NCBI GenBank assembly: GCA_028718185.1
Contig: JAQUMH010000001.1
Location: forward strand, 591,186-655,185
Reading direction: 5' to 3'
From: Elusimicrobiota bacterium
Lineage (GTDB): Bacteria > Elusimicrobiota > UBA8919
Length of the DNA stretch: 64,000 bases
Shown here: piece after piece, positions 24,314-38,433 of the stretch
Numbering within the stretch: position 1 is the stretch's first letter
Layout of the letters: each line of letters starts with the position of its first letter
Translations under genes and position numbers: made by a program
The notes under the pieces: generated by a model
Database searches by the model: none
What the model was told of the DNA's origin: nothing
The model's input: only the letters and a program-made list of their open reading frames with translations

Positions 24314-24337
24314 AAACACCACGCTGATTGGAGTTTA

Positions 24338-24385
24338 TCCCGATGAATATCGGGACAGATACTTCAGCGTCTATCTGCGTTATTC
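24338..24385. repeat. Hairpin and repeat tract between plsC and ispH
   Basis: TCCCGAT (24338-24344), loop gaat, ATCGGGA (24349-24355) is a perfect hairpin, flanked by 'acgctga' and 'ttcagcgtctatctgcg' sequences that resemble the tract at the pgeF-pheA junction (31591-31624). The plsC stop codon (24380-24382) lies at the edge of the tract. Confidence 0.6.
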
Positions 24386-30342: not shown

Positions 30343-30533
30343 AGCAAAGCTAGAAATTTCATCCTACCTTAATCGCAAACGAGAGAAAAATTTACCCTAT
30401 CCTAATCGTAAGCGAGGGAGAAATTTCTGAAGAGCCTGAATTTGCGACTTATTCTTTCCAGGAGCAAATGTTAGAGCGAGTTCCAACGAGCGTCTCGAAG
30501 AAATTTGCTCCCGAGCGCTATTCGCCAGTAGGA
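30343..30533 (-). repeat. Dispersed double-hairpin element, copy B
   Basis: Best single copy. The left hairpin uses TCGTAA (30405-30410) against TTTGCGA (30441-30447), with the self-complementary AGAAATTTCT (30419-30428) between them. The right hairpin pairs GGAGCAAAT (30461-30469) with ATTTGCTCC (30503-30511), a perfect 9-bp stem. Two further partial left-hairpin motifs lie at 30343-30400. The element abuts the pheA stop codon TAG (30518-30520): the stop codon itself is shared with the 'gaatag' that also ends tsf at copy C. No ORF lies in the region to 30296. Confidence 0.8.
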
Positions 30534-32242
30534 TACGACCCCAGCACCTTCAGCATAGTACAGTTACTTTCAAGTTCCGATAAAGCTTTTTTAACATTTT
30601 TATCTTCAATATGACCCATGAAATCAATAAAAAAAATGTATTCCCACGCTTTTTTCTTAGTCGGTCGTGATTCTATTTTAGTAAGATTAAGTTTGTGCTT
30701 TTTAAAAGGAATCAGCATATCATGAAGTACGCCAATCCGGTCTTTTGCAGAAAACATAATTGATGTCTTATCGCTTCCGGAAATAGACGGACTCTTCTTA
30801 CCTATTACAAGAAATCTTGTGAAATTATTTTTAAAATCCTCTATGTTCCTGGCTATAACGTTGAGTCCATATACTTCACTGGCAACAATTGAGGATATAG
30901 CAGCAGTGTTTTTTTCTTTTTTAGCGAGCTTAGCAGCTTCAGAAGTAGACGCTACTTCCACAACGCTGACGCCTCTTAGATTTTTTTCTATCCAATTTCT
31001 TGTCTGTGCTATCGGTTGCGGATGAGAATAGACTTTTTTTATTTTCCCAAGAGACGTCTCAGTAGACAATAAACAATGGGAAATCTCAAGAAATATTTCC
31101 GAAGTAATCTGTAAATCTGATTCAATGAACATATCAAGCGTATGATTGACAATGCCTTCCGTAGAATTCTCAATGGGAACGACCCCATAATCAGCACGGT
31201 TTTTTTCTATTTCCGTAAAAACATCTTTTATCGAACCGACAGGGATATAATCAACATATTTACCGAATATTCTTATAGCGGCAAGATGAGTGAATGTCGC
31301 TTCAGGTCCAAAATATGAAACTTTTATTTTTTTCTGTATTGAACGGGAAACATTTAATATCTCTTTAAAAATATCCGATAAACATTCGTTAGGAATAGGA
31401 CCTTTATTTAATTTAATTATATTTGAAATAATCTCTTTTTCTCTTACCGGGACGAAAACCTCTTCTTTCTTACTCGATTTAATCTTACCTATTTTAATAG
31501 CCAGTTCTATTCTATCGTTTAAAAGTTTTAAAATATTTTTATCTATAACATCAATTTTTTTCCTTATTTCCCCAATCATCTTCCCCCCTGAACGCTGATT
31601 TTTTAATCTGCGGACATCAGCGTTTCCCTCAAGCATCATAACAGATATCATTCTTTCTTCTGTTTTGTTTTTTCTATATGAAAAAAAATCTTTATTGTGA
31701 GTACAAACATCTGAAAAGCTGATTTTGCTAACGCCTGCCGTATTTATTTGTTTCTTAGCAACTTTATCTAAATCAGTATCGTAACAACATTTTTTTATAT
31801 GCGGTCCGACCGCAACAAAAACATTTCCGGGGTCCGAATGAAACACCTTTTCCATTGTGCCGATTGCCCTACTAATAATCTTTTTTTCAAGACCGACACG
31901 ACCCGCATGAACCAATCCGATTATTTTTTTCACTTTATCGTAAATAAATACCGGCAGGCAATCAGCAGTAAAAACGGCTAGCGGAACATTATTTTTATTA
32001 GTTATAAACCCGTCTGTTGAATAAAATATTTTATTAATATCTTTTTTAGTAACAATCTTTATATTATCGCTGTGTGTCTGTTTGCCGAAAACAACTTTTT
32101 TTATTCCAAAATATTTTTTCAGGTAATACCGGCGATTTTTTTCGTTCTTCATATCGCCGTATAAAACAGTAGTAGTAAAACCAATTACACCGTATTTTTT
32201 AAGTTGATTTTCAAAATATAAACCGTTTTTTAATTTCCACAT
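30518..32242 (-). CDS. pgeF-pheA: Fused PgeF-type purine nucleoside phosphorylase and chorismate mutase/prephenate dehydratase
   Basis: The 574-residue ORF joins two proteins. Residues 1-205 are a PgeF/YfiH (LACC1-type) domain with GKQTHSDNI, TADCLPV and VHAGRVGLEKK, the His-Cys-His zinc site; it ends in ISVMMLE, the usual PgeF terminus. Residues 222-574 are a complete P-protein: chorismate mutase (MIGEIRKKIDVIDKNILKLL), prephenate dehydratase (SYFGPEATFTHLAA, ENSTEGIVNHTLDMF) and a C-terminal ACT domain for Phe feedback. The 15-residue join (GNADVRRLKNQRSGG) is encoded by a palindromic octamer repeat, AACGCTGA (31591-31598) with TCAGCGTT (31617-31624). The repeat appears to have replaced the pgeF stop codon. 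A ribosome site AGGGGGG and ATG at 31579 could still start free PheA. Confidence 0.9.
   Translation of the reverse strand: MWKLKNGLYFENQLKKYGVIGFTTTVLYGDMKNEKNRRYYLKKYFGIKKVVFGKQTHSDNIKIVTKKDINKIFYSTDGFITNKNNVPLAVFTADCLPVFIYDKVKKIIGLVHAGRVGLEKKIISRAIGTMEKVFHSDPGNVFVAVGPHIKKCCYDTDLDKVAKKQINTAGVSKISFSDVCTHNKDFFSYRKNKTEERMISVMMLEGNADVRRLKNQRSGGKMIGEIRKKIDVIDKNILKLLNDRIELAIKIGKIKSSKKEEVFVPVREKEIISNIIKLNKGPIPNECLSDIFKEILNVSRSIQKKIKVSYFGPEATFTHLAAIRIFGKYVDYIPVGSIKDVFTEIEKNRADYGVVPIENSTEGIVNHTLDMFIESDLQITSEIFLEISHCLLSTETSLGKIKKVYSHPQPIAQTRNWIEKNLRGVSVVEVASTSEAAKLAKKEKNTAAISSIVASEVYGLNVIARNIEDFKNNFTRFLVIGKKSPSISGSDKTSIMFSAKDRIGVLHDMLIPFKKHKLNLTKIESRPTKKKAWEYIFFIDFMGHIEDKNVKKALSELESNCTMLKVLGSYPTGE
31579..31590 (-). 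promoter_or_regulatory. Internal ribosome site for PheA within the fusion
   Basis: CAGGGGGGAAG lies directly before the ATG at 31579, which starts MIGEIRKKIDVID, the normal beginning of a chorismate mutase domain. Separate translation of PheA (353 residues) from this site is therefore likely. Confidence 0.6.
31591..31624. repeat. Palindromic octamer repeat at the pgeF-pheA join
   Basis: AACGCTGA, a 18-bp middle containing tctgcgga, and TCAGCGTT. The arms are perfectly complementary. It carries the codons of the fusion linker. Confidence 0.75.
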
Positions 32243-37534: not shown

Positions 37535-38433
37535 CCTATTATCTTTATTTCCAATCCTAATTTTTTTGAAAATTTATCTTTAACTTTTTTCTGGACTATT
37601 TTTATCAATTTAAGGATATCTGAAGCCGTCGCATTGCCTGTATTATTTATGTAATTTGCATGTAAACCAGAAACAACTGCATCACCAACCGATACGCCTT
37701 TAAGCCCTGCCTTATCTATAAGGCGAGAAGCATAATCATTGTCCGGGTTCTTAAAAACACAGCCGGCATTAAAATATCCTATCGGCTGTGTTTTTGCACG
37801 GCGAAGTAATAATTCATTCAGCTTTTTTATTATATCACTTTTATCTTTCTTTTTCAATACGAATTCAGCAGAAATAACTATGTTTTTTTCCGGTATATCT
37901 GAACTCCTGTAAGAAAACTTTAAAGATTTTTTATCTATCTTTTTTATACCGCCTTTCTCATCCATTATTGTTACCGATTTAACGATTGAACCGATATTTC
38001 CATCTTTCGTTCCGGCGTTCATAATAACGGCACCGCCAATAGTACCCGGAATACCTACAAGAAATTCCATTCCGCCAAGACCGTTATCGGCACATTTTTT
38101 CACGAGAAGCTGCAGGGCGCAACCACCGCCGGCTATTACATTGTTTTTATCCAAATTAAAATCTAAATTGAAAAAATCTCCGGTTAGCCTGATAACAATT
38201 CCCCTAAACCCTTTATCTTTTATCAAAATATTTGAACCAAAACCGACCACTAAATAATCAACTTTTTTTTCACGAATATATTGTAAAAGCTGTTTTAGTT
38301 CGCCGGTCGTTTTCACTTCAACATAAAAATCGCAGGGACCGCCGACACGAAATGTAGTACGCCTGCTCATCGGTTCAGACTCAAGAACTCTTCCGCTAGT
38401 GATTTTTGAAATTTCAGAATGGTTTAGTTTCAT
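37528..38433 (-). CDS. murB: UDP-N-acetylenolpyruvoylglucosamine reductase
   Basis: The 301-residue FAD enzyme completes UDP-MurNAc synthesis. It has VGFGSNILIKDKGFRG, GMEFLVGIPGTIGGAVIMNAG, FSYRSSDIPEKN and NAGCVFKNPDNDYASRLID. The proton-donor position reads Cys (GCVFKNP), where E. coli MurB has Ser; a Cys or Ser is found in different MurB groups. The start overlaps the end of murC. The stop codon lies in an octamer tract. Confidence 0.95.
   Translation of the reverse strand: MKLNHSEISKITSGRVLESEPMSRRTTFRVGGPCDFYVEVKTTGELKQLLQYIREKKVDYLVVGFGSNILIKDKGFRGIVIRLTGDFFNLDFNLDKNNVIAGGGCALQLLVKKCADNGLGGMEFLVGIPGTIGGAVIMNAGTKDGNIGSIVKSVTIMDEKGGIKKIDKKSLKFSYRSSDIPEKNIVISAEFVLKKKDKSDIIKKLNELLLRRAKTQPIGYFNAGCVFKNPDNDYASRLIDKAGLKGVSVGDAVVSGLHANYINNTGNATASDILKLIKIVQKKVKDKFSKKLGLEIKIIGK

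Follow-up and report, generated by a model that had tools for sequence, protein, structure and literature searches.

How do two genes that lie next to one another throughout a bacterial phylum come to be read as a single gene? Within the window (the whole 64,000-nucleotide stretch of Elusimicrobiota DNA that was analysed), the question is raised by positions 30518..32242 of the minus strand, the strand of every part of the frame located below, where a fused pgeF-pheA open reading frame of 574 codons runs with no internal stop. The original prediction held that a repeat insertion had joined the two genes, and its description of the frame stands: a single frame of 574 amino acids is present, no stop codon follows the end of PgeF at ISVMMLEG, and NADVRRLKNQRSGGK forms an in-frame bridge from PgeF to PheA. 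Likewise, the usual start of PheA, which had been placed at M222 behind its own ribosome site, is present, with AGGGGGG three bases upstream of the ATG. The bridging tract had been described as a palindrome of octamers; it is indeed palindromic, while its arms measure 9 bp rather than 8 (AACGCTGAT and ATCAGCGTT, 31591-31624, with 16 nt between them).

Profile searches place the first half of the frame (residues 1-206, 31625..32242) in the peptidoglycan editing factor/YfiH family, with 146.8 bits against TIGR00726 (cut-off 141.15) and 144.5 bits against PF02578 (cut-off 22.9). This half also retains H57, C95, and H112, which are invariant in 18 sequences and which we take to be the conserved His-Cys-His site of YfiH. 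The PheA half (residues 222-574, 30518..31579) carries an AroQ-type chorismate mutase (CM_2, PF01817), a prephenate dehydratase (PDT, PF00800), and an ACT domain (PF01842), scoring 74.3, 220.5, and 43.2 bits against cut-offs of 27, 25.2, and 27, respectively. It also exceeds the cut-off of the prephenate dehydratase model NF008865 (290.9 bits, cut-off 219) and stays below that of PRK10622, the equivalog model for the enteric P-protein (217.5 versus 577 bits). The PheA sequence is 76-79% identical to proteins from relatives of the same taxonomic family, with no truncation, and its domains follow the usual order and usual start of a P-protein; unlike the P-proteins of the relatives that were read, it bears a PgeF domain at its N-terminus. 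In AlphaFold2 predictions, the PgeF half, modelled alone, had a pLDDT of about 97, the linker a low pLDDT, and the PheA half a pLDDT mostly above 90, the last from a run without a proper alignment for the PgeF half. Although they say nothing on activity, the models fit two predicted domains joined by a flexible, unstructured tether.

Relatives of the organism provide the state from which the fusion may have arisen. A search of 340 genomes of the phylum, and a reading of about 25 adjacent pgeF-pheA pairs, found that pgeF adjoins pheA across the Elusimicrobiota, and this adjacency is of long standing there. Just as the original prediction would have it, the genes of relatives are separate, with no repeat of the same family at their junction, and they form one frame only where the repeat is present. 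Among the pairs read, there was no second single PgeF-PheA frame, and hence no case of the same fusion without the repeat. Frames of 550-707 amino acids in some relatives (for example, G086, G239, G108, and G313) were considered as additional fusions and rejected, the genes being separate or PgeF absent.

Three Elusimicrobia metagenome-assembled genomes (MAGs) of the same family, G004, G005, and G007, share one form of junction. In these, pgeF ends in MMMEGK*, IMMEER*, and MMMEAK*, respectively, and its TGA overlaps the pheA ATG as ATGA, preceded by GGAGG (for example, GGAGGGAAAATGATT in G004). It follows from this overlap that pheA lies one frame off from pgeF and that its ribosome site sits within the last pgeF codons. 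Such an NTGA (-4) overlap is the commonest overlap spacing in prokaryotes, and translational coupling is most efficient at spacings of this kind (PMC12548453). Other arrangements also occur: the overlap is longer in G002, and in G008 and G011 both genes share one frame with a stop between them. Moreover, dispersed-looking sequences of other types occupy the junction, with no fusion, in G001 (L005), in G011 (L008), and at L056 (GCCGTCCGCCGCGGCGGAT; CTCTCCCTTCAAGGGAGAGG; one translating as VIASEAKQSRCFVSKRRDCFVAKAPRND), and insertions thus seem to gather, or to be tolerated, at this site.

When the flanks of the tract in the window, GAGGG and AAGATGATT, are joined, they reproduce the arrangement of G004, relative to which the window has 40 to 43 additional bases, the figure varying with the assignment of the G run. 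Within this addition lies the 34-nt palindromic dispersed repeat AACGCTGATGTCCGCAGATTAAAAAATCAGCGTT (31591..31624), and directly before it, at the end of pgeF, stands GAGGGA (31625..31630), which corresponds to the GGAGG found ahead of pheA in relatives. The repeat, together with the bases that follow, encodes the 15-residue linker NADVRRLKNQRSGGK (residues 207-221, 31580..31624), the first eleven residues of which are the repeat translated in frame. In the sense direction the element is open in a single frame, that reading NADVRRLKNQR, and has stops in the other two. By frame alone, then, an insertion here would be expected to fuse the genes in roughly one case out of nine.

From the comparison of these sequences, the fusion probably arose through the insertion of a small, dispersed palindromic repeat between pgeF and pheA, which brought pgeF into the frame of pheA. 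The ancestral state would have been a pgeF TGA overlapping the pheA start (ATGA), with the genes one frame apart. A copy of the repeat would then have entered the junction of the operon, and the added 40-43 nt (1 mod 3) would have shifted the end of pgeF into the frame of pheA. As the element is free of stops in that frame, a ribosome starting at pgeF would continue through the 15-residue linker into PheA, and the resulting fusion protein may work as two flexibly tethered domains. Ribosomes may in addition initiate at the pheA ATG (31577..31579), which is retained behind the Shine-Dalgarno-like AGGGGGG (31583..31589); with both signals kept, some free PheA from this internal start is plausible. 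The AGGGGGG itself may have arisen by duplication of the original site, and AGGG is possibly duplicated at the flanks of the tract. Longer copies of the repeat, in the same genome and in relatives, carry GTTCAG inside the element; the flanking repeat may therefore not be a duplication, and no target-site duplication is claimed. In one respect the event resembles a stop-loss fusion, in that any net change of +1 with an open insert would fuse genes at a -4 overlap. It differs from a simple stop loss in that the change here is an inserted repeat copy, which supplied the linker as well.

What the fusion does is a separate matter, and it stands close to an even chance that it amounts to an accident, neutral or slightly harmful, with PheA made mainly from the internal start and a linker with no role; such a fate would be compatible with origin by insertion. 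Retention of the internal ATG and AGGGGGG would favor an accident of this kind, as would the toleration of other repeat types at this junction in relatives. Nothing decisive speaks against it, and the absence of decay in both halves fits either view.

The fusion itself is read from a single assembly (3.03 Mb in 27 contigs), which is the sole genome of its genus examined. It is conceivable, then, that the repeat is real and the consensus wrong by one base, the true A6 run within the repeat (31599..31604) or G6 run within AGGGGGG being one base shorter, in which case pgeF would have acquired a 15-residue, repeat-derived tail. With one base removed from either run, PgeF has 221 amino acids and ends exactly at the ATGA of relatives, so that one wrong base in the consensus could pass for a fusion, and 27 contigs for a genome of this size could mean long reads. 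Against this, the window contains 225 homopolymers of 6 or more that lie 120 nt or farther within intact frames, and none of 20 neighboring frames tested with Pfam, a subset of those in the window, proved to be a protein split in two; among these there was thus no hint of a consensus prone to indels. With homopolymers intact elsewhere, an error at A6 or G6 thus appears unlikely, and since the insertion is present either way, and about a third of insertion lengths would yield a fused frame, the simpler interpretation is that the fusion is real. That the junction is instead polymorphic or slippery at these runs, with the population, ribosome, or polymerase yielding both the fused and the ATGA-overlap frames, is very improbable, for although two mononucleotide runs lie in the frame-critical stretch and TTA AAA AAT offers an in-frame heptamer (A AAA AAT), a run of 6 is short, and runs of equal length are common in intact genes of the window.

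Copies of the repeat were surveyed by pattern matching and on sampled stretches of DNA. The palindromic pattern CGCTGATN{0,30}ATCWGCG had 25 matches in the genome and the direct-pair pattern CGCTGATN{0,20}CGCWGAT had 35, versus 0 for each reversed-pattern control; the two full 9-bp arms are found together as an exact pair at one place only. A dispersed palindromic repeat family thus exceeds chance in this genome. Over-representation of the 9-mer AACGCTGAT within the 64,000-nt window was rejected (16 near-matches versus 13 expected). As RNA, the tract folds into a perfect 9-bp hairpin with a 16-nt loop (-10.6 kcal/mol, z -3.9), and a longer copy of the repeat forms a single extended hairpin in which A-A mismatches recur regularly (z -5.1). 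It is the tract alone that stands out, the fold of the 71-nt junction being unremarkable (z -0.5). A second, degenerate copy lies in the window at about 24320-24381, between two co-directional genes, and has an inner CCCGAT/ATCGGG stem. The gap between pheA and the aminotransferase gene that follows it (30352-30428) contains a different type of inverted repeat, an imperfect one with 20-nt arms at 80%.

The family also occurs in several Elusimicrobia of the same taxonomic family. It is common in G004, G007, and G006 and scarce across most of the phylum, and many of the matches there seem unrelated in sequence. Co-directional genes flank 23 of the 32 distinct repeat clusters, and the gaps between them mostly measure about 30-200 nt; since this share has no baseline, only the orientation bias was tested, and the A-type orientation relative to genes prevailed by 18 to 4 (p = 0.004; loci of the same genome and of G003, G004, and G007). 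Such a bias suggests a role at the RNA level, or a bias in insertion or retention. A full-text search of open-licence papers did not find the repeat's sequence, nor did a literature search find any report on palindromic repeats of Elusimicrobia.

Repeat copies also appear to be translated elsewhere, with gene identities in the window's genome read from sequence. For example, the rplE tail AADKR* and the accB tail IPADKKE* are repeat-encoded, and a phosphomannomutase-like gene may start inside a copy. Two related histidine kinases carry in-frame copies inside the ATPase domain (G000:C6:32018-32070 and 37632-37670; ..TADKKSAVICDKKSVVISVTDTG.. and ..ITADKKSVVISVTDTG..), and an unrelated gene of G004 terminates in NADVRR*, a peptide that the PgeF-PheA linker shares. 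The loci concerned are L149, L150, and L170 for the histidine-kinase copies and L144, L152, L153, L178 (G004), and L184 (G004) for copies at tails or at a possible N-terminus. The repeat family of Elusimicrobia is apparently undescribed, orientation-biased, and often translated. A bolder proposal, that orientation-biased, translated hairpin repeats repeatedly supply tails, loops, and linkers at operon junctions and here made a working PgeF-PheA fusion alongside free PheA, seems rather unlikely to hold in full.

Palindromic insertions of this sort have precedents. Rickettsia palindromic elements (RPEs), of about 150 bp and with conserved encoded peptides, are dispersed repeats lying in frame within protein-coding genes, to which they add a peptide, and in-frame fusions by intragenic MITEs have been described as not unusual (PMC10969869). 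The Elusimicrobia tract resembles RPEs in being an in-frame palindromic insertion in a coding gene. It differs from them in its length (34 nt), its 10-nt CGCWGAT units, and its host, and in joining two whole genes instead of lengthening one; with repeat, size, and host all distinct, its assignment as an RPE was rejected. Similarly, it shares with MITEs and with REP/BIME/ERIC-type repeats a short, hairpin-forming sequence found mostly in gaps between operon genes; neither the inverted termini of a known transposon nor a transposase nor a firm target-site duplication links it to MITEs here. The event thus works like known in-frame palindromic insertions, and what appears to be new is the repeat family and the joining of two complete genes. 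Moreover, the ancestral arrangement is still visible in relatives, which reveals a concrete step whereby a small dispersed repeat can convert two overlapping genes into one multidomain protein and supply its linker. If the protein is real, it would offer a case, open to testing, in which genes were fused by the insertion of a repeat rather than by deletion or by point loss of a stop.
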